Shown in pieces: positions 41,862-52,121 of a DNA stretch of 52,121 bases; positions within the stretch are counted from its first letter, which is position 1; every line of letters starts with the position of its first letter. The notes below the pieces were generated by a model. It was not told the origin of the DNA and ran no database searches. It saw only the letters and a program-made list of their open reading frames with translations. Both the position numbers and the translations under genes were made by a program. Source of the DNA: Acidimicrobiaceae bacterium (GTDB taxonomy: Bacteria; Actinomycetota; Acidimicrobiia; Acidimicrobiales; Aldehydirespiratoraceae). The DNA lies in NCBI GenBank assembly GCA_026710865.1, contig JAPOQG010000177.1, positions 1-52,121 on the forward strand, given 5' to 3'.

Positions 41862-41948
41862 TCAACTCTCCTCGTGTCTAGGACGGGTAGGACTGTAGGT
41901 GCAGGTTCTCGGTTTTGAGTAATGGGGCTGCTCTGCGATGATCGCGCT

Positions 41949-43694
41949 ATGCAACCCGACGAGTCCAGCGGTTCGCGGCACGTCCGGTTCGAGCCTGACG
42001 ACAGGCCGTCCCTCGTGCTGTCGGTTGGACTCGGGCTTCAATTCGCGCTCCTCGCCATCGCGGGCATCGTGCTCACGCCGGCAATCGTCGTGCGGGCCGC
42101 CGGCGGTTCCGACTCGTACCTGACCTGGGCGGTCTTCGCGGCTGCGGCGGTCAGCGGCGTCAGCACCATCCTGCAGGCCGTCCGCGTCGGGCGCATCGGC
42201 GCGGGGTACCTGCTTCTCATGGGAACGTCGGGCGCGTTCATCGCGGTGTGCGTCGCGGCGCTCGTCGAGGGAGGCCCCGGTCTGCTCGCCACGTTGGTGG
42301 TGGCGTCCTCGCTGTTCCAGTTCCTGCTCGCCGCCAGGCTGTCGCTCCTCAGGCGACTGCTGACGCCCACCGTGGCCGGCGTGGTCATCATGCTGATCGC
42401 GGTGACGGTCATGCCGCTCGTATTCGACATGATCACATCCTCGCCGGAAGGCAGCGCCCACTGGAGCGCGCCGACCAGCACGCTCGCCACGATGCTCGTG
42501 ATCATCGGGATCGCGCTGAAATCCACCGGCAGTCTCCGCCTGTGGGCGCCGGTGATCGGCATCGTGGCCGGCTCGGTGGTGGCGTCGCTGTTCGGGCTGT
42601 ATGACACCGACCGGGTGGCCGAGGCCCCCTGGATCGGTCTGCCCAGCGGCGCGTGGCCCGGCTTCGACCTGTCGTTCGGCCCGGCCTTCTGGAGCCTGCT
42701 GCCCGCCTTCGTGCTGGTCACGGTCATCGGCGCCATCGAGACGATCGGCGACTCGGTGGCCATCCAGCGGGTGTCGTGGCGGCAGCCCCGGGCGGTGGAC
42801 CACCGGGTCGTGCAGGGAGCGGTGGCCGCGGACGGAACCGGAAACCTGCTGTCGGGACTCGCCGGCACACTTCCGAACACGACCTACTCCAGCAGCATCT
42901 CGATCACCGAGCTGACCGGCGTGGCCGCCCGCCGCGTCGGCGTCGCCATCGGTGTCTCGTTCATCGTCATGGCGTTCCTGCCGAAGGTGCTGGCCGTGGT
43001 GCTGGCCATACCCGACGCGGTCGTGGCGGCGTACATCGTGGTGCTGATCGCCCTGCTGTTCGTCGTGGGCATGAAGATCGTCGTCGACGAGGCCGCCGAC
43101 TACCGCAAGGGCGTGATCGCGGGTGTCGCCTTCTGGACCGGCGTCGGCTTCCAGAACAACCTGATATATCCGGAGAACCTGGACGGGTTCGCCGGCGGTC
43201 TGCTGGAGAACGGCATGACGTCGGGAGGTCTCGTGGCCATCGTCCTGACGCTGTTCACGGAGGTGACCCAATCCCGCCGCAGGCGACTGCGGGCCGCGCT
43301 GTCGATGTCGGAACTGCCGCGCATCCGGCAATTCCTGAACGAATTCGCGGCCCGCCACGGCTGGCAGGCATCCATGCTGCAACGGCTCGACGCGGTTGCC
43401 GAGGAGACGCTGCTCACGCTGATCGACACCGAGCGACTCGACGACGACGGCGACGGGCGCACGCTGCGCGTCACCGCCAGCAAGCAGGACGGCCAGGCAG
43501 TGCTCGAGTTCGTGTCCGCGTCCCGCGGGGAGAACATCGAGGACCGGCTGGCTGTTCTCGACGAGCCGAGCACGGATCGGCCCGCCGAGCGTGACATCTC
43601 GCTGCGGCTGCTCCAACATCACGCCTCTTCGGTGCTGCACCAGCAGTACCACGAGATCGAGATCGTGACGGTCCACGTCAGCGTTCCGGCCTAG
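41949..43694 (+). CDS. Nucleobase permease (NCS2/NAT family) fused to a GHKL-like C-terminal domain
   Basis: A 581-residue protein. Residues about 25-445 are a multi-helix xanthine/uracil permease with AIETIGDSVAIQRV and the NAT signature region GNLLSGLAGTLPNTTYSSS followed by ITELTGVAARRVG. Residues about 456-581 are a soluble cytoplasmic extension whose pattern (LPRIRQFLNEFAARHGW; LDAVAEETLLTLID; a beta strand RTLRVTAS) resembles RsbW-type GHKL ATPases, but the N-box Asn and the DxGxG box are degenerate. Ordinary NCS2 permeases stop near 430-460 residues, so this is a true fusion. ATG 41949 is chosen over an upstream start in the intergenic region. Divergent from the lipoyl operon across 87 nt. 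Purine or pyrimidine uptake with built-in regulation is the natural guess. Confidence 0.88.
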   Translation: MQPDESSGSRHVRFEPDDRPSLVLSVGLGLQFALLAIAGIVLTPAIVVRAAGGSDSYLTWAVFAAAAVSGVSTILQAVRVGRIGAGYLLLMGTSGAFIAVCVAALVEGGPGLLATLVVASSLFQFLLAARLSLLRRLLTPTVAGVVIMLIAVTVMPLVFDMITSSPEGSAHWSAPTSTLATMLVIIGIALKSTGSLRLWAPVIGIVAGSVVASLFGLYDTDRVAEAPWIGLPSGAWPGFDLSFGPAFWSLLPAFVLVTVIGAIETIGDSVAIQRVSWRQPRAVDHRVVQGAVAADGTGNLLSGLAGTLPNTTYSSSISITELTGVAARRVGVAIGVSFIVMAFLPKVLAVVLAIPDAVVAAYIVVLIALLFVVGMKIVVDEAADYRKGVIAGVAFWTGVGFQNNLIYPENLDGFAGGLLENGMTSGGLVAIVLTLFTEVTQSRRRRLRAALSMSELPRIRQFLNEFAARHGWQASMLQRLDAVAEETLLTLIDTERLDDDGDGRTLRVTASKQDGQAVLEFVSASRGENIEDRLAVLDEPSTDRPAERDISLRLLQHHASSVLHQQYHEIEIVTVHVSVPA

Positions 43695-43731: not shown

Positions 43732-44778
43732 TCAGTACTGGGCGGCGGCGTTGATGGCGGCGGCGATGTCCTGGGTGCCGGGCAGGACCACGTCCTCCAG
43801 GGGAACCGAGAAGGGGATGGGGGTGTCGAGCCCGTCGACCCGCACCACCGGGCCCTTCAGGTCGGCGAAGCACTCCTCGCTGATGCGGGCGCTGAGCTCG
43901 GCGCCCAGCCCGCCGATGCGGGGCGCCTCGTTGGCCACCACCACCCGGCCGGTCTTGGCGGCCGCAGCCAGCACCGTGGCGGCGTCGTAGGGCCGGATCG
44001 TCCGGAGGTCCACGACTTCGACCGAGATGCCGGAGTCGGCCGCGGCCTGCTCGGCGGCCTCCAGCGCCATGGGCACCATGCGCATGGCCGCCACGACGGT
44101 GACATCGCTGCCCTCGCGGGCGATGGCGGCCTGGCCCAGAGGCGTGGTGTAGTACTCGGGGGGCACCTCGGCCCGGCTGCGGTACAGGGCCTTGTGCTCC
44201 AGGAACAGCACCGGGTCGTCGCTGTCGATCGAGGCCAGCAGCAGGCCCTTGGCGTCGACCGGGTTGGACGGGGCCACGATGACGATGCCGGGCACGTTCA
44301 GGAACCAGCCCTCCACGCTCTGGGAGTGGTGCGGCCCGCCGCCGAACCCGCCCCCGCAGGCGGTGCGGATCACCAGGGGCGCCTTGAACTGGCCGTCGAA
44401 CATGTAGTGCATCTTGGCCACGTTGTTGACGACCTGGTCGTAGCACTCGGCGATGAAGTCGGCGAACATGATCTCGGCCACCGGGCGCATGCCGACCATG
44501 GCCGCGCCCGCGCAGGTGCCGATGATGGCCGCCTCCGACAGCGGAGTGTCCCGCACCCGCTCTGGCCCGTACTTGGCCAGCAGGCCCTTGGTGACGCCGA
44601 AGTCGCCGCCCATCTCGGCGATGTCCTCGCCGATGACGAACATCTCGGCGTGCTTGGACATGGCCAGGTCCAGGGCGTTGTTGAGCGCCTGGGTGAAGCT
44701 GGCCTTGCGGACCCTGTCCCGGGGCTTGCGGGGCGTCCGCGCCGTCCGCTTGGGGGCTGCCGTGTCTGCGGCCGTCAT
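43732..44778 (-). CDS. 2-oxoacid (pyruvate/acetoin-type) dehydrogenase E1, beta subunit
   Basis: A 348-residue transketolase-like beta subunit. After a basic Pro/Arg-rich N-terminus (KRTARTPRKPRDRVRKASF) comes the standard fold: MFVIGEDIAEMGGDFGVTKG, RVRDTPLSEAAIIGTCAG, HHSQSVEGWFLNVPGI, and the C-terminal VEVVDLRTIRPYDAATVLA segment. ATG 44778 overlaps the stop of the alpha gene. It forms the alpha2beta2 thiamine-diphosphate decarboxylase that transfers an acyl group to a lipoyl protein. No E2 acyltransferase or E3 is next to it. The convergent permease gene ends 37 nt away. Confidence 0.92.
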   Translation of the reverse strand: MTAADTAAPKRTARTPRKPRDRVRKASFTQALNNALDLAMSKHAEMFVIGEDIAEMGGDFGVTKGLLAKYGPERVRDTPLSEAAIIGTCAGAAMVGMRPVAEIMFADFIAECYDQVVNNVAKMHYMFDGQFKAPLVIRTACGGGFGGGPHHSQSVEGWFLNVPGIVIVAPSNPVDAKGLLLASIDSDDPVLFLEHKALYRSRAEVPPEYYTTPLGQAAIAREGSDVTVVAAMRMVPMALEAAEQAAADSGISVEVVDLRTIRPYDAATVLAAAAKTGRVVVANEAPRIGGLGAELSARISEECFADLKGPVVRVDGLDTPIPFSVPLEDVVLPGTQDIAAAINAAAQY

Positions 44779-45752
44779 CGCGGGTCCACCTCCCAGCCGA
44801 CATAGACGTCTGCGGTCGCCTTGGCCGGGTCGGGCTCGGGGCTCTCGATGGCGAAGGCGATCCACTCGTCGATCAGGCCGGCCGCCTCCTTCTCGATGGC
44901 GTCGAGGTCGGCCCCGTCCACGCCCCGCCCGGCCAGGGCCTCGCCGGCCAGCATGATCGGGTCGCGCTCCTCCTTCCAGTACTTGACCTCCGCCTCGGGC
45001 CGGAACTCCCCGGCGAAGATCCCCTGCCAGCGCCAGGTCTTGAACTCCAGGAAGTACGGGCCCGCGCCGGAGCGGATGTGCTCGACGGCCTCTCCGACAA
45101 CGGTCCAGGCCTCGACGATGTCGTTGCCGTCGAGCTGGCGGGACTCGAAGCCGTAGCCCTGCACCATGTCGACGATGTCCGCGGAGGCATGACCGTCGCC
45201 GACCGGCATGGAGATGGCGTAGCCGTTGTTGACGCAGGCGTACAGGACGGGCAGATCCCAGATGGCCGCCATGTTGAGGCTCTCGTGGAACTCGCCCCGC
45301 CCGACGGTGCCGTCGCCGATGATGGCGCAGGCCACGTTGGGCCGGCCCCGCATCTTGGCCGCCAGGGCCACGCCCAGCACGGTGGCCATGTAGGAGCCCT
45401 CCACCGCGTTGTCCCCGAAGTTGCCGACGGCCGGGTCGGCCGAGTGCAGGCTGCCGCCCTTGCCGCCGCACACCCCGGTGGACTTGCCGAACAGTTCGGC
45501 CATGATCCGCTCGCCGTTGCCTCCGTGGCGATGCTGGGCCAGGGCGTTGATGCCGTGGCAGCGGTGGTCGGGAAAGAACGCGTCGGTGGCCTCGAGGTGC
45601 CAGGCCAGGGCGGCCTGGGTGGCCTCTTGGCCGAGCCCGGTGTGCAGCATCCCGGGCACGTTCCCCTTCTCGAACTCGCGTTCGAGTCCCTGCTCGAAGG
45701 CCCGTATCAGCCACATGTCGCGGTACAGGCCCAGCAGTGTCGACGTCTCCAC
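44775..45752 (-). CDS. 2-oxoacid (pyruvate/acetoin-type) dehydrogenase E1, alpha subunit
   Basis: A 325-residue thiamine-diphosphate-dependent subunit. The ThDP motif begins GDGTVGRGEFHESLNMAAIW and ends about 30 residues later in ACVNN; the phosphorylation-loop region and FFPDHRCHGINALAQ and GKGGSLH blocks are as in acetoin/pyruvate E1 alpha. GTG 45752 shares its first base with the last base of the upstream flavin-reductase stop codon, and the 3' end overlaps the beta gene by 4 nt. This tight packing shows one operon from the Rieske oxygenase through E1 beta. Confidence 0.92.
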   Translation of the reverse strand: METSTLLGLYRDMWLIRAFEQGLEREFEKGNVPGMLHTGLGQEATQAALAWHLEATDAFFPDHRCHGINALAQHRHGGNGERIMAELFGKSTGVCGGKGGSLHSADPAVGNFGDNAVEGSYMATVLGVALAAKMRGRPNVACAIIGDGTVGRGEFHESLNMAAIWDLPVLYACVNNGYAISMPVGDGHASADIVDMVQGYGFESRQLDGNDIVEAWTVVGEAVEHIRSGAGPYFLEFKTWRWQGIFAGEFRPEAEVKYWKEERDPIMLAGEALAGRGVDGADLDAIEKEAAGLIDEWIAFAIESPEPDPAKATADVYVGWEVDPR

Positions 45753-46426
45753 TACGGCTCCTTCCGGTTGTCGATGAACTCGGCCCACGGGGTGCGGGCC
45801 AGGTAGTAGGCGCCCTCGTCGGTGGTGCGCAGGAAGGTGCGCAGGCCGAGGCGGGCTATCGCGCCCAGGCGCACCGGGTCTATGCGGCCCTGCTCGTTGC
45901 AGATGGCCGAGTCGTAGGCCACCCACACCACCTCGCCGATCACCAGATGGACCTCCCCGAAGACCCGGTCCGGGGTCCCCAGGTCCACCACCTTGTGCAC
46001 CACGCACTCCAGGCGGGCCAGGGCCTCGCCGATGGCGGGCGAGCCCACCTTGGTGGCCGGCACCGGAGTCCACCCGGCGAGGTCGAACTCGTCGACCTCG
46101 CTCGGGGACTCCATGGCCACGGTCTCGATGTCGTCACGGAAGGCCTCGCTGGTGACGTTGACGACGAAGTCGCCGCTGGCCATGGCGTTGAGGTAGGTGT
46201 GCTTGAGCTGCCCGTCCTCGCGCAGCCCCATGGTGATGCCCAGCAGCATCGGGTCGCCGGTGATGGGCAGGTAGTAGCTCATGGGAGCGATGTTGGCGAT
46301 CCCGTCGGGGCTGCGGGTCGAGACCATGGCGATCGGCCGGGGCACGACCAGCTGCGACAGCATGAACTGGCGGTCCATGGGCTGGTTCTCGCAAGGGTCG
46401 AAGGTGATGGTGCGATCGGGGTCCAT
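45752..46426 (-). CDS. Flavin reductase-like FMN-binding split-barrel protein
   Basis: A 224-residue protein of the flavin reductase domain family. VVPRPIAMVSTRSPDGIANI and APMSYYLPITGDP form the FMN-binding part, and DFVVNVTSEAFRDD follows the usual pattern. It lies between the Rieske oxygenase (30 nt upstream) and E1 alpha (1-nt overlap). It could supply reduced flavin or electrons to the oxygenase, although classical Rieske systems use iron-sulfur flavoprotein reductases. Some relatives bind FMN without reductase activity. Confidence 0.88.
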   Translation of the reverse strand: MDPDRTITFDPCENQPMDRQFMLSQLVVPRPIAMVSTRSPDGIANIAPMSYYLPITGDPMLLGITMGLREDGQLKHTYLNAMASGDFVVNVTSEAFRDDIETVAMESPSEVDEFDLAGWTPVPATKVGSPAIGEALARLECVVHKVVDLGTPDRVFGEVHLVIGEVVWVAYDSAICNEQGRIDPVRLGAIARLGLRTFLRTTDEGAYYLARTPWAEFIDNRKEP

Positions 46427-46456: not shown

Positions 46457-47626
46457 TCAGGCTCCGTTGGACGGCCAGTCCCGGCGGTAGCGCCTCACCA
46501 GCCAGCGGTTGAACTGGACCAGCGTCTCCTCCTGCCAGGAGTAGCGGCCGCGGGGGGCCAGATGGGAGTTCAGCCCCACCTGGGTCATGGTGTCGGCGTG
46601 GATGTCCTGCACGTTGAAGTTGTTGACGCCGGCCTCGGCCGCCTCGAACAGGTAGTCGAACAATGGGTCCTGCAGGGCGGCGGGCTCCAGGCAGTAGCCG
46701 ATGTGGATGGTGATGTTGCCCGCGTCCTGGGGGCTGATGATGAAGTAGGCCACCTCGTCGGGAACGATGGCCAGGGTCAGGGTGGGGGGTATGAGCACGA
46801 AACCGCCCCGCTTGCGCTGCTCCTCGGTGAGGTTGGCGAACACCGGCAGCAGGCAGCGCTGGGTGGGATTGAACGAGCTGTCGATGTCGGTGAAGTGCTG
46901 GATGCGGCCGATGGCGCCGTCGTCGTCGTCCCAGGCGAGGAAGTCGTTCATGTGGCTGGGAGCGAACGTCTGCAGCGGCCCGTGGAGCCGGCTGGCGTGG
47001 TAGGGGTCGTTGAAGTTCTCCATCATGACCTTCCAGTTCCAGGGAAGGTCCGGGATCGTCTTGCCCTCGATGGTGGTTGTGGACTCCAGCCCGTAGTTGG
47101 TCAGCAGCTGGTCGATCTTGGTCATGGTCGGACCGAAGGCGCTGGCGTCGTGGTCGAAGTTGGCCATGATGAACCCCTGCCAGATCTCAACCTTGAGCTG
47201 GGGGAGCGGGTGCTCGGACTGGTCGAAGTCGACGGCCCGGTCCATGGCCGGGGTTCCGAGCAGCGTCCCGTCGAGCCCGTAGCTCCAGTGGTGATAGGGG
47301 CAGGTGAACCGGCGGCAGTTGCCCGATCCCTCGGCTATCACCATGCCCCGGTGCCGGCACACCGCGGACATGACCCGCAGCTCGCCGCCGGAGTCCCGGG
47401 CCGCGATGAGCGGCTCGCCCGCGATGGTGATGCAGCGGTAGTCGCCCGGCTCCTTCAACTGGTCGACGCGGCCCACGCAGAGCCATTCCCGCTGGAATAT
47501 GGCCCGCCGCTCGAACTCGTAGAACTCCGGCGACGTGTACAGCACCGGCGGCAACAGCCTGGCCTTGTCCACCGGCCCGACCGAGTCGTCGAAGCTGGCT
47601 AGGAGTTCGTCGGTCAGAACCGTCAT
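46457..47626 (-). CDS. Rieske non-heme iron oxygenase, alpha subunit (second copy)
   Basis: A 389-residue oxygenase with Rieske ligands CRHRGM and CPYHHW (about residues 87-112) and a mononuclear iron site in MENFNDPYHASRLHG. It is a relative of the 23402-24640 protein (shared FERRAIFQREWLCVGR-type opening) but with diverged C-terminus, so the substrates probably differ. Start ATG 47626 fits the family beginning; GGAG lies about 11 nt upstream. First gene of the operon that continues with flavin reductase and E1 alpha/beta. N- or O-demethylation or ring hydroxylation are possible reactions. Confidence 0.9.
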   Translation of the reverse strand: MTVLTDELLASFDDSVGPVDKARLLPPVLYTSPEFYEFERRAIFQREWLCVGRVDQLKEPGDYRCITIAGEPLIAARDSGGELRVMSAVCRHRGMVIAEGSGNCRRFTCPYHHWSYGLDGTLLGTPAMDRAVDFDQSEHPLPQLKVEIWQGFIMANFDHDASAFGPTMTKIDQLLTNYGLESTTTIEGKTIPDLPWNWKVMMENFNDPYHASRLHGPLQTFAPSHMNDFLAWDDDDGAIGRIQHFTDIDSSFNPTQRCLLPVFANLTEEQRKRGGFVLIPPTLTLAIVPDEVAYFIISPQDAGNITIHIGYCLEPAALQDPLFDYLFEAAEAGVNNFNVQDIHADTMTQVGLNSHLAPRGRYSWQEETLVQFNRWLVRRYRRDWPSNGA

Positions 47627-48071: not shown

Positions 48072-49673
48072 CTAGCGGATCGGCAGCGCTCCTTGGAGGC
48101 CTGTGCCGAGCTGCAGGCACAGGGCGTCGGCGTGGGGTGGCGCCACGATCTGAATGGCGGCCGGGCGGCCCTCGTCCTGGCCGACCGGCATCACCAGCGC
48201 GGGCTGTCCGGTCAGGTTGAACGGCAGGAATGATCGGGCGACCTTGTCGAGCCACAGACGGTCGCCGTCGTCGAAGAACGTGGCCGGGTCGGGTGCCGTG
48301 GTCGGCGTGGCTGCGGTCACCAGCACGTCCACCCGCTCGAACGCCGCGTCGATGTCGCTCTGTACCAGGCTGCGGGTTCGCAGCGCCTTCAGGTAGTCCG
48401 CGGCGCTGGTCCGGGCTCCGGCTGCCAGCCGGCCGGCCGCCGAGGGGGTGAACTCGTCGATGCGATTCATGTTTGCTGCGTGGTGGGCGGCGAACTCCAC
48501 CACGGTGATGACCCAGGCGGCGATCCCCGCCAGCTCCGCGCACCGGAACGGGACCGGCTCGATCGTGCAACCGAGCTCCTCCAGCCGGGCCAGCGCGCCG
48601 GACAGGGCCGCATCCACACCAGGCGAGCAGCCCGCGGCCAGCCATCCCTCGACCACTCCAACCCTCAGGCCATTGACCGATCCGGCCAGCCGGCCGTAGT
48701 CGGGCACACCCCGATCGGAGGTGTACGGATCGGCGCGGGATCCGCCTGCGATCACTCCCAGGACGAGCCCCAGATCCTCGACGGTGCGGGCCATGGGACC
48801 CACATGATCCAGCGTCCAGGACACGCCGAAGACGCCGTCGCGGGGCACACGCCCGAACGTCGGTTTGATCCCGGTGACCCCGCAGTAGGAGGCGGGGACC
48901 CGGATGGACCCGCCGGTGTCGCTGCCGAGCGCCACCGGGAACAGCCCGGCCGCCAGGCCCGCGGCCGACCCCGACGAGCTTCCCCCTGCCCACCGTCCCG
49001 GCGCGCCGGGGTTTGCCACCCCGTCGCCGGACTCGTCGCCGAAGGCGAACTCAGGGGTGGTGGTCTTGGCCAGGATCACCGCGCCGGACTCCCGCAGCCG
49101 GGCCACGACGGTGGCGTCCGACGCCGGGACGTGGCCGGCGAACAACGTTGATCCGGCCTCGGTGGCCAGCCCGCGGGTGTCGATTATGTCTTTCACCCCG
49201 ACGGGCACGCCCTCCAGTGGCCCGGCGTCTCCATTGCGCCACCGCTCGGCCGAGCGGGCGGCCTGATGGCGGGCGGTGCTGTCGACGGTCACGACCGCGC
49301 CGATGGCGTCGTCGGAGCGGTCGATGCGGGCCAGGCAGGCGTCGACCACCTCGACCGGGTCGAACGCCCCGTTCCGGTAGCCCCGAAGCAGCCCCGCCGC
49401 GCTCAGGCCGGCGAGGTCGTCGCCTGACCGGGCCAGTCCCTCGCTCGGCGACGCATCTGGCGCGGTTGCAGCGCCGGATGCGACTGCCGGCGGCACGGCG
49501 TGAGAGATCCAGCGATCACCGGCCGCGGGACCGGAAGTCTTGCCGAACGGCTCGCGGAGGGCTCGCAGCGTCTCGAGCTTGCCGCCCAGCGTGGCTTGGG
49601 CGGCGGCGGCCGCGGCCAGCATCCCCTCGGGGATCGGAGCGGCTCCGTTGGTGACAGTCCAATCGCCTACCAT
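48072..49673 (-). CDS. Amidase signature family hydrolase with N-terminal helical extension
   Basis: A 533-residue amidase with the Ser-cisSer-Lys triad: Lys161 in GVPVGVKDIIDTRG, the cis-Ser in AGGSSSGSAAG (about 229-239) and nucleophile Ser256 in GSDTGGSIRVPASYCGVTG. The first 75 residues are an extra helical region (IPEGMLAAAAAAQATLG) that recalls the small AtzG/DUF4089 partner of amidases such as AtzE, here possibly fused. Such enzymes hydrolyse amides, carbamates or biuret-like compounds. ATG 49673 is preceded by TACGTT-N6 (leaderless layout). It could complete the ring-opening chemistry of the hydantoinase operon, but is far from it. Confidence 0.9.
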   Translation of the reverse strand: MVGDWTVTNGAAPIPEGMLAAAAAAQATLGGKLETLRALREPFGKTSGPAAGDRWISHAVPPAVASGAATAPDASPSEGLARSGDDLAGLSAAGLLRGYRNGAFDPVEVVDACLARIDRSDDAIGAVVTVDSTARHQAARSAERWRNGDAGPLEGVPVGVKDIIDTRGLATEAGSTLFAGHVPASDATVVARLRESGAVILAKTTTPEFAFGDESGDGVANPGAPGRWAGGSSSGSAAGLAAGLFPVALGSDTGGSIRVPASYCGVTGIKPTFGRVPRDGVFGVSWTLDHVGPMARTVEDLGLVLGVIAGGSRADPYTSDRGVPDYGRLAGSVNGLRVGVVEGWLAAGCSPGVDAALSGALARLEELGCTIEPVPFRCAELAGIAAWVITVVEFAAHHAANMNRIDEFTPSAAGRLAAGARTSAADYLKALRTRSLVQSDIDAAFERVDVLVTAATPTTAPDPATFFDDGDRLWLDKVARSFLPFNLTGQPALVMPVGQDEGRPAAIQIVAPPHADALCLQLGTGLQGALPIR

Positions 49674-49733: not shown

Positions 49734-50504
49734 TCAGTCCCAGTCTCCTGGCGACCACACTCCGGGGAACACGTCGCCGAAGGAATCGAGGGGCTGGCAT
49801 CGCCTGTCCCTCTCGTAGGCGATCGCGGCCGCGAACTGATCGCTGCCGATGTTCTCGACTTGCCATGCCATATCGGGCATGTCGGGGAACCGGAAGACGC
49901 CGCGGCGGGAGCCGTTACGCATGGTGGCTGGAATCTCGAATCCGGAGACGTCCAGCGAGAGACCCATGCCGTGAGCCTTGCTCAGCGCCTCCTTCGTGGT
50001 CCACAGATCGAGGAACAGATGAAGCCGTCGATCTCGGGTGACCGCGTTGACTTCGGCTCTCTCGGATGGGCCGAGGACCGCCTCGACCAGCACATCGAGA
50101 TTGCGCTGCGGAACCCGCTCCTCGACATCGACTCCCACCCGTCGCCGGGGCGCGAGCGCGATCAGGCCGTGCTGGCCGCTGTGGCTGACGTTGAACTCGA
50201 CGGAGGTCTGGTGCCCATTGACCGTGGCGGAGGGCTTGCCGTGCTCGCCGGCGCCGAAGGCCAGATGCTGGTTGCGGCAGTTGAGCGCGCTGCTCAGCAG
50301 CGAGCGCAACGACGCGCGGCACAGAACGTATCGGCGCCGGGCCCCTGCATGCTGGAAGCGGCGGGCTCGGGCACGCTCATCGTCGTCGAGCCACTGCCAT
50401 GCAGCCTGCTCGTTGACTTCGCTGGGAACTAAATCGACCAGCGTGACGGAGACATTGTCGAGTTGTCTGTACGGTCGCCACCAGTTGCCGCGGCCAAGAG
50501 CCAC
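49734..50504 (-). CDS. 4'-phosphopantetheinyl transferase, Sfp type
   Basis: A 256-residue Sfp/AcpT-type enzyme that should move the 4'-phosphopantetheine arm of CoA onto a carrier-protein serine. Motifs: FNVSHSGQHGLIAL, RRRVGVDVEE with Asp126 and Glu128 as Mg ligands, and LWTTKEALSKAHGMGLSL with Trp168, Lys171 and Glu172. GTG 50504 is the first possible start; the true start may lie some codons inside. It follows the acyl carrier protein by 24 nt, which strongly suggests it activates that carrier and the polyketide synthase upstream. Confidence 0.92.
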   Translation of the reverse strand: MALGRGNWWRPYRQLDNVSVTLVDLVPSEVNEQAAWQWLDDDERARARRFQHAGARRRYVLCRASLRSLLSSALNCRNQHLAFGAGEHGKPSATVNGHQTSVEFNVSHSGQHGLIALAPRRRVGVDVEERVPQRNLDVLVEAVLGPSERAEVNAVTRDRRLHLFLDLWTTKEALSKAHGMGLSLDVSGFEIPATMRNGSRRGVFRFPDMPDMAWQVENIGSDQFAAAIAYERDRRCQPLDSFGDVFPGVWSPGDWD

Positions 50505-50528: not shown

Positions 50529-50774
50529 TCAGCCGGCGCGGGCTTCGAGGTACGCGATGAGATCGCTCGGCGTGAGCAACTCGGCGAACTCCTCAGCCGG
50601 AATGTCGATGCCGAACTCCTCGCAGACGAGCCTCCAGAACGCCACAATGTCAGCGGAACTGACTCCCGCGTCGATGATGCTGACACTATGGCTCACCGGC
50701 TGACCCTTATCCCTGCCCTCGATCTGCAGGTTCTCGTCTACAAGGGCTCGAATGCGGTCTTCGGTGGAGGACAT
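50529..50774 (-). CDS. Free-standing acyl/peptidyl carrier protein
   Basis: An 81-residue four-helix carrier protein. The attachment site is DAGVSS (residues 35-40), matching DxGxxS with Ser40 as the phosphopantetheine acceptor, and helix III/IV with EEFGIDIPAEEFAELLTPSD is typical. ATG 50774 has AAGGG about 11 nt upstream. It sits between the PhyH-type oxygenase and the phosphopantetheinyl transferase. A dedicated discrete carrier beside an Fe/2OG enzyme is the arrangement used for halogenation or hydroxylation of carrier-bound substrates. Confidence 0.88.
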   Translation of the reverse strand: MSSTEDRIRALVDENLQIEGRDKGQPVSHSVSIIDAGVSSADIVAFWRLVCEEFGIDIPAEEFAELLTPSDLIAYLEARAG

Positions 50775-50851: not shown

Positions 50852-51859
50852 TCAAGCCTCGCGTGCCCTCTGGAGCAGCCTCCGGTCGCGGTCGCTGAAG
50901 TAGGCACACTCCGAGAGAAGGTCGCCGTTCTCCGCTCCGGCCTCGGCGATCTCAATGTGCTGCCGGGTGACCGGCTTGTAAGGGAAGAGTCCTTTCCCGT
51001 ACTGCTCGGCGGGGAACTCAAGGGCCCGCGCCCGGTCCAGGTCGTACCGCGAGGCCGCATCGACGAAGCGCAGCACGTACGCCGAACGACGCGACAGTTC
51101 CCCCTCGCCGAGCATGATGCTCCGGTGAGCGACCGTCTTGTCGAACAGGAGCACGTCACCGGGATCGAAATCGTCCTCCACCTGGTGGACCTCGAGAAGC
51201 TCGTCCATCACCGGGGAGTTCAGTATCTCCGCCCTGAGATCGCCGTAGTCTTGCACGCTTGTCCTTCTCCCGGACCGTTCCCTGGCCCGGAGCACTTCGA
51301 CGACCGCCAGGTCCGCCGAGTAGACGAATTGGCCCGACAGCACATGCCGGGGAACGTAGGCCATGCCGCCGCGCTGCCCGCTCGCATCTATGGGATGCAG
51401 CGGCGCCCAGAGCGTGCACCCGAACTCCTCGGCGAACTGGAAGCCGAAGCTCTGCACGCCGACATGCCACGGCAGCCCCTCGCTGGCGTTCTTCTCGACT
51501 TCGAAGGACAATTCGAACGTGAGAAAGAGATCGCGTCCCGTCAGTCCGGTCAGAGTCTGCCGAAAGAAGGGGCGCTCCAGCAGCTCGAAGATGTCAGTCT
51601 TGGCTGCTTCGAAGTCGTACTGCACCTTGCTGAACGGGGCGGCTCCGCGGGTGAACGCGTTGGTGGTGCTGCGGGTCAACTCGACGCCGACGCGATCTTG
51701 CAGCATGCCGACCACGGCACCGTTCAGGAATCCCTTCAGCTTTATGAAGCCGTAGCGCTGGAACTGCTCCTGCTGCTCGCCGGTGATGACGAACTCGCTG
51801 TCGAAGGGATGACCGGTCACGACGGGGCCCCGTTCTCCGGTGGTGTGGGCCAACGGCAT
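50852..51859 (-). CDS. PhyH-family Fe(II)/2-oxoglutarate enzyme with HxG in place of HxD (possible halogenase)
   Basis: A 335-residue phytanoyl-CoA dioxygenase-like protein. In this family the iron is held by His-x-Asp and a distal His. Here the first motif reads GLPWHVGVQSFG, i.e. His132-Val-Gly134: the codons are CAT GTC GGC, so Gly truly replaces Asp. The distal His245 (VAHRSIM) and the 2OG-binding Arg257/258 are kept, as is the GGMAYVP segment. Loss of the carboxylate opens a chloride site in Fe/2OG halogenases such as SyrB2 (HxA) and WelO5 (HxG). The gene is 29 nt downstream of a polyketide synthase gene and 77 nt upstream of a carrier protein. Halogenation is inference; a different acidic ligand or lost activity remain possible. 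Confidence 0.85.
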   Translation of the reverse strand: MPLAHTTGERGPVVTGHPFDSEFVITGEQQEQFQRYGFIKLKGFLNGAVVGMLQDRVGVELTRSTTNAFTRGAAPFSKVQYDFEAAKTDIFELLERPFFRQTLTGLTGRDLFLTFELSFEVEKNASEGLPWHVGVQSFGFQFAEEFGCTLWAPLHPIDASGQRGGMAYVPRHVLSGQFVYSADLAVVEVLRARERSGRRTSVQDYGDLRAEILNSPVMDELLEVHQVEDDFDPGDVLLFDKTVAHRSIMLGEGELSRRSAYVLRFVDAASRYDLDRARALEFPAEQYGKGLFPYKPVTRQHIEIAEAGAENGDLLSECAYFSDRDRRLLQRAREA

Positions 51860-51888: not shown

Positions 51889-52121
51889 TCACTTTGGTTG
51901 CAGCGGTTGGACCCAGTGGCGACGCCGCTCGAACGGATAGCCCGGCACTGAGATGCGGTGCCGGATCTCGTCTGAGAACAGCTCGTGGAAGGGCACGTCG
52001 AGCCCGGCCTCGTAGTCGGCTGCGGCGTCTAGGGCTGCGTCGCGGCCGCCGGGAGATCCGACCGCCCTCGGTGCTTGCCTCCCGTCCGCCACCGCCTGCA
52101 GTCCCTCGCGCAGCGACTCGA
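51889..52121 (-). CDS. Polyketide synthase, C-terminal end (cut by window edge)
   Basis: The last 76 residues of a large protein whose frame is open to the window end. It ends DEIRHRISVPGYPFERRRHW followed by VQPLQPK, the typical linker after a ketosynthase or acyltransferase domain in modular synthases (consensus LPTYPFxRxRYW). The preceding stretch has helical EAGLDVPFHELF. Whether it belongs to a cis-AT or trans-AT system cannot be told from this piece. It is the first visible gene of the minus-strand cluster that includes the PhyH-type enzyme, carrier protein and phosphopantetheinyl transferase. Confidence 0.8.
   Translation of the reverse strand, partial: ESLREGLQAVADGRQAPRAVGSPGGRDAALDAAADYEAGLDVPFHELFSDEIRHRISVPGYPFERRRHWVQPLQPK

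Follow-up and report, generated by a model that had tools for sequence, protein, structure and literature searches.

In Fe(II)/2-oxoglutarate (2OG) halogenases, O2 and 2OG yield a haloferryl species; this takes a hydrogen from an sp3 carbon, to which the halide then rebounds. In SyrB2 and CytC3 the carboxylate ligand of the iron has been lost, and these enzymes work in a carrier-protein context. The CurA halogenase (CurA Hal, PDB 3nnf) of the curacin A pathway works on an ACP-bound substrate and has an HMG cassette beside it; we take it to be a domain of a polyketide synthase (PKS) polypeptide acting on HMG-ACP, with Arg247 and Arg241 as its 2OG-binding residues. BtnX of Dinoroseobacter shibae (PDB 9pv1 and 9q04) was deposited under the name 'Biotin halogenase BtnX | Phytanoyl-CoA dioxygenase'; the activity attributed to it here is that of the deposit name alone, and no paper on BtnX or on biotin halogenation was found in the open PMC literature. 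The 305 residues of BtnX printed in the alignment are identical to a D. shibae plasmid protein. At both the BtnX gene and a Pseudosulfitobacter homologue (L007:9992-12775, L006:9992-12774), a recombinase gene precedes, and genes for BioY, an ABC ATPase and EcfT follow.

The Sup polyketide cluster of sponge symbionts was reportedly described by Fieseler in 2007. In the available portion of PMC4245539, Sup clusters are presented as sponge-specific small PKS clusters whose proposed products are mid-chain-branched fatty acids, and Sup genes as dominating sponge PKS amplicons. A table of PMC3908369 names the permease of one sponge-symbiont Sup clone SupE, and a passage of PMC9426513 names hosts among Chloroflexota, Spirochaetota, Proteobacteria and Acidobacteriota. 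No description of a halogenase in Sup clusters was found in the open PMC literature: the word is absent from the available portions of PMC3908369 and PMC4245539, and is unlinked to SUP in that of PMC9426513.

In this work, we analysed a stretch of 52,121 nucleotides from an Acidimicrobiaceae bacterium (hereafter the window), which ends with its contig, C21. At 50852..51859 (- strand) a separate ORF with its own ATG start and stop encodes a candidate Fe(II)/2OG halogenase of 335 aa, placed by sequence in the BtnX/CurA Hal type. Compared over 320 codons with the gene of locus L002, whose product is 75 % identical, it gave dN 0.15 and dS 0.65 (NG86), with 58, 40 and 101 differences at codon positions 1, 2 and 3, respectively; such purifying selection argues for a real gene. 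An earlier note on this DNA had read an HxG iron motif at His132-Val-Gly134, with a retained distal His245 and 2OG arginine, and both readings hold. The codons of His132-Val133-Gly134 are CAT GTC GGC (51458..51466, -; coordinates counted from the ATG), and His132, His245 (51125..51127, -), Arg258 and Arg264 are invariant in the alignment (11/11 sequences). By its role in the family, His245 would be the distal iron ligand. The stretch from Arg264 to Arg258 (51068..51088, -) is predicted to bind 2OG, these arginines pairing with Arg247 and Arg241 of CurA Hal by residue count on the PDB-search alignment. Gly134 and Arg163 of the QRGG stretch (51371..51373, -) are kept in 10/11 sequences and replaced, jointly, only in L002; once L030 and L039 join the alignment, HVG is found in 12 of 13 relatives. 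A structure prediction from five sequences gave a mean pLDDT of 37, too low to be usable. A phage or virus origin of the gene was considered and rejected, as one scan of viral contigs gave no relative and a phage collection gave a single partial match (34 %).

In a single-sequence search of the PDB, the protein best matched 9pv1 (with 9q04; E 8.4e-113, query residues 14-329) followed by 3nnf (E 2.1e-26); the only further match was an unrelated protein (E 1.4). With a profile of the 11 sequences, BtnX (E 3.7e-158) and CurA Hal (E 5.7e-41) led again, hydroxylases and other PhyH-like proteins ranking behind them at E 1.3e-3 or weaker; among the 16 profile matches up to E 10, SyrB2 was absent and CytC3 appeared only at E 0.74. 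By these searches a SyrB2-like carrier halogenase was rejected, and so was the earlier note's proposal that halogenation could have arisen separately within PhyH, the sequence grouping with BtnX and CurA Hal. The label 'PhyH family' also proved too loose, Pfam PhyH (PF05721) scoring 14.1 bits against a gathering cut-off of 22; NCBIfam gave no match.

The window protein is 56 % identical to BtnX and shares with it HVG, the distal His, the 2OG Arg and QRGGMAYVP, its own clade having a longer C-terminal segment than BtnX. With CurA Hal it has in common PWHVG, also present in BtnX, the distal His, both 2OG arginines and RGGM; it is a stand-alone protein, whereas CurA Hal lies within a PKS, and a Pfam scan of 18 window stretches gave no HMG synthase. 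The BtnX gene and that of the window differ in setting as well, the former being on a plasmid beside biotin transporter genes and the latter beside a PKS. With a named halogenase as its nearest solved relative and the CurA halogenase as its second, both having PWHVG, the product of 50852..51859 is very probably a halogenase. Its family is already represented in the PDB, and its polyketide-cluster setting was not found described.

One scan of a genome collection returned four loci, i.e. L002 (75 %), L003 (64 %), L004 (61 %) and L005 (64 %). The gene was found in 2 of 41 relatives (host included), in 2 of 296 genomes of the class (the host and one weak match of 28 %), in 2 of 57 genomes of the L003 phylum and in 2 of 39 genomes of the L005 family, where one genome has two copies, L005 being the second. 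G303 and G328 were counted once, their proteins being identical and their contigs numbered alike. In a tree of 13 proteins rooted at the midpoint, BtnX and its neighbour were grouped as sister to these relatives (support 88/89, below the starred level), followed by the Dadabacterial proteins, which are 63 % and 67 % identical to BtnX, and then by those of Acidimicrobiia including L004 and L005. A more distant clade, carried on plasmids of Pantoea, Klebsiella and Acinetobacter beside a LysE exporter, is 40-44 % identical to the window protein.

Upstream of the candidate halogenase, 51889..52121 (-) holds the 3' end of a PKS gene (post-AT tail), truncated where the contig stops. These last 233 bases of the window encode 76 aa that a PKS model recognises weakly (E 1.6e-5), and match the C-termini of the PKSs of six relatives in the genus at 44-71 % (over 29 residues only for L036). 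Downstream are a discrete acyl carrier protein (ACP) with the serine motif GVSSAD (50529..50774, -; PF00550, E 1.7e-7) and a 4'-phosphopantetheinyl transferase (PPTase; 49734..50504, -; PF01648, E 2.8e-15), as the earlier note had described, the truncation of the PKS by the end of C21 being an added detail. An amidase (48072..49673, -), a Rieske oxygenase (46457..47626, -) and a flavin reductase (45752..46426, -) follow. Among the six genus clusters examined (L034-L038 and L040), the amidase is present in all six, the Rieske oxygenase at least partly in all six (four are truncated where the stretch or contig ends) and the flavin reductase in all three that reach that far (L034, L038 and L040). 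Past the flavin reductase, E1 alpha/beta dehydrogenase genes occupy 43732-45710, and an E1 alpha-like end adjoins the cluster in L040 too, as judged by eye; these genes could perhaps supply a starter unit. A second permease (41922-43691) shares its Pfam family with the permease of contig C312 and is 44 % identical to it.

Contig C312, from the same assembly, carries a hydrolase and this permease upstream of a PKS frame of 2977 aa that is cut inside its second KS at the contig end. The six relatives share the gene order permease-hydrolase-PKS-ACP-PPTase-(variable)-amidase-Rieske, with a flavin reductase next in the three stretches that reach it; the L035 permease lies just past its stretch (C46:15615-16739). 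Permease-hydrolase-PKS matches C312, and the genes from the ACP onward match the window. An overlap between the ends of C21 and C312 was sought and none was found; because of the synteny with the six genus relatives, we infer that the two contigs are neighbours and that the PKS body lies on C312. By Pfam, the L034 PKS is organised as KS-AT-DH-MT-ER-KR-ACP-KS. No second AT was seen in L034, the second AT of L029 has GHGTGE for GHSxGE, and a separate ACP follows. The second KS of this PKS (L029:1570-12063, L034:4300-13971) has the Cys motif and lacks HGTGT, reading HGPGS, HAAGS or HCVGS where the first KS has HGTGT.

This cluster is probably the Sup cluster of sponge symbionts, and is so called here because of its resemblance in having a permease of the kind named SupE and a small branched-chain PKS. 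The likeness was drawn from PKS architecture and synteny set against published descriptions. The genomes that carry the cluster are presumably of sponge origin. In the portions of the sources available, the points in common are a type I PKS of small size, for which branched saturated acyl chains are the proposed products, and, in one clone, the SupE permease; the hosts named in the PMC9426513 passage differ from the phyla in which the gene is found here (Acidimicrobiia and Dadabacteria).

Five of the seven halogenase loci in Acidimicrobiia and Dadabacteria, the window included, adjoin one PKS type, at three positions. The gene lies between PKS and ACP in the window; in L031, which is the L002 locus, it is flanked by a second Rieske gene and by the permease, from which it is divergent. 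It is divergent from the permease in L030 as well, and upstream of the PKS in L029 (i.e. L003) and L039. Contig ends truncate L031 and L039, whose ACP and PPTase fall outside the visible part. Four of these five loci have HxG, L002 having HVE. The polyketide context proposed earlier is thereby strengthened, since in two phyla related genes adjoin a PKS of this kind. At L004 and L005, no PKS was found in the 21 kb examined. Within the genus of the window, the PKS is present in 10 of 16 genomes and the gene in 2, both among those 10; in 25 other relatives the gene was found in none and a strong PKS match in none, with one weak PKS match (E 7.5e-5). Two of two within 10 of 16 is not significant taken alone (chance about 0.375), so that the weight rests on adjacency. 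The site between PKS and ACP is empty in all six genus clusters, with no halogenase match there or elsewhere in the stretch: from PKS stop to ACP start, the gap measures 53 bases in L034, 77 in L035, 81 in L036, 103 in L037 and L038 and 65 in L040, and in the window it is occupied by the gene of 1008 bases.

A second gap of the cluster differs from the relatives by a loss. Four of the six (L034, L035, L037 and L038) have a PhyH-type gene with intact HQD between PPTase and amidase. In L034 its product matches Pfam PhyH at E 6e-21; it is an Fe/2OG enzyme like the candidate halogenase, with which it aligns only locally, over 47 columns (E 0.001). L040 has nothing in this slot. In L036 the slot holds a Rieske alpha and beta ring-hydroxylase pair (L036:15380-17226), showing that it varies between oxygenase types. 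The PPTase of the window exceeds those of L034 and L040 in length, and its last residues, ..LDSFGDVFPGVWSPGDWD, are the end of the PhyH protein: the last 28 codons and the stop of the deleted hydroxylase gene now form the PPTase C-terminus (49734..49820, -). A PhyH search of the host genome retrieved this scar at 64 % identity over 28 residues (281-308 of the relatives' protein) and otherwise only matches of 28-36 %, which together indicate that the host lineage lost its hydroxylase by a deletion fusing the last codons to the PPTase gene. The hydroxylase was lost at one gap and the halogenase gained at another, and L040 and L036 lack the hydroxylase and yet have no halogenase; an exchange of one for the other is for these reasons only a suggestion.

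From the site as aligned with its relatives, Fe(II) would be held by His132 and His245 and 2OG by Arg258/Arg264; with Gly134 providing no ligand, chloride or bromide would take the third protein position. In the window enzyme, the haloferryl species would then abstract hydrogen from an unactivated sp3 carbon, to which the halide would rebound. A BtnX/CurA-type halogenase would have been recruited into a branched-acyl cluster, landing between PKS and discrete ACP, in a lineage that also deleted the PhyH hydroxylase gene just behind the PPTase. The most likely target would be the acyl product of the cluster or an intermediate, perhaps while on the discrete ACP. We favour, with moderate confidence, an action of the candidate halogenase in the pathway of the polyketide cluster, and about half of the weight given to this proposal falls on an ACP-bound chain as substrate. 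Several points weigh against the pathway. BtnX bears the name of a biotin halogenase, and the neighbours of its gene serve biotin transport and are not carrier proteins; L004 and L005, two of the seven loci, lie away from the PKS; L002, at the same PKS type, reads HVE; and the clusters of L031 and L039 are visible only in part.

As a sub-case of this action in the pathway, with which it shares part of its weight, the enzyme might halogenate a precursor or the free released product, the ACP serving the PKS only. BtnX is indeed named for a free small molecule, and the ACP-PPTase pair is present in 6/6 genus relatives that have no halogenase, which implies that the ACP has a job of its own. The position of the gene exactly between PKS and ACP in the window nonetheless speaks for a carrier-bound substrate, as does the ACP-bound substrate of CurA Hal, the next relative. 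Considered by itself, a free substrate is rather doubtful.

A BtnX-like halogenation of biotin, with the gene being in the cluster only incidentally and the halogenated biotin serving e.g. as an antimetabolite, is unlikely. The identity to BtnX, higher still in the Dadabacterial members, would fit such a role, and the stretches PWHVGVQSFG and GQRGGMAYVP are the same as in BtnX; being nearly identical in the LysE-linked clade too, these stretches are not biotin markers. L004 and L005 adjoin a nucleobase-type permease, with a biotin-dependent carboxylase near L005, and their genomes (G330 and G331) have no bioB above the cut-off. This permease adjacency is suggestive only, because 7 of 8 genomes contain 2-6 members of the SupE-type Pfam family (G355 contains none). 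Against biotin, the host genome (92.8 % complete) gave no BioY match and the 18 window stretches scanned with Pfam showed no biotin gene. Moreover, bioB is above the cut-off in four of the five gene-carrying genomes that bear the cluster (G000, G328, G329 and G355, not G331), so that an enzyme halogenating free biotin would meet the cell's own vitamin there; with bioB above the cut-off in 6/8 genomes examined, its distribution is not decisive, and neither is the lack of a BioY match. A biotin substrate would also leave unexplained the repeated place of the gene beside one PKS type in two phyla.

In L002 (L002:9992-10990), CAT GTA GAG encodes His-Val-Glu where the window has His-Val-Gly, and GQGGGM replaces GQRGGM, i.e. 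Arg163 has become Gly. The same protein occurs in L013, and the locus, seen again in L031, adjoins the same PKS type; the variant comes from one genome. If HVE is real, its sequence predicts that the L002 enzyme is a hydroxylase or a dead enzyme, the joint change of Gly134 and Arg163 suggesting that the halide site was given up there. That the window protein itself is a hydroxylase, a desaturase or an inactive protein that lost its carboxylate ligand is quite improbable: although HxG alone is no proof of halogenation and a relative as close as L002 has HVE, the two closest proteins of solved structure share the motif and are halogenases by name or by known activity, the sequence is under purifying selection, and Gly134 and Arg163 change together only in L002.

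A wider reading in which Sup-type polyketides come halogenated can be put forward only tentatively. It would join the presence of a BtnX-type gene at three cluster places in two phyla, reached by separate entries or moves, the loss of PhyH, and L002, whose HxE with arginine loss would be a natural change from halogenase to hydroxylase. That the cluster of these uncultured bacteria has a halogenase gene here, and in relatives an ordinary hydroxylase, suggests that its product can come in a halogenated form. If some Sup clusters do contain a halogenase, an isotope pattern or mass shift would offer a handle to find the product in sponge extracts, and a substrate class would be added to a halogenase family for which two PDB relatives, CurA and BtnX, were found. 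The HVG/HVE pair at 75 % identity is in addition a natural experiment on halogenase versus hydroxylase.

In the distant plasmid clade, a 41 %-identical HxG protein of a Klebsiella variicola plasmid (L009:6858-9598) is encoded between a BesC-like protein and a LysE exporter gene. The BesC similarity is weak (E 1.4e-6, far under the cut-off of that model), and the locus looks like one for amino-acid halogenation. A LysE gene also follows the HxG gene in L008 and L011, the L011 frame being shorter at its 5' end.
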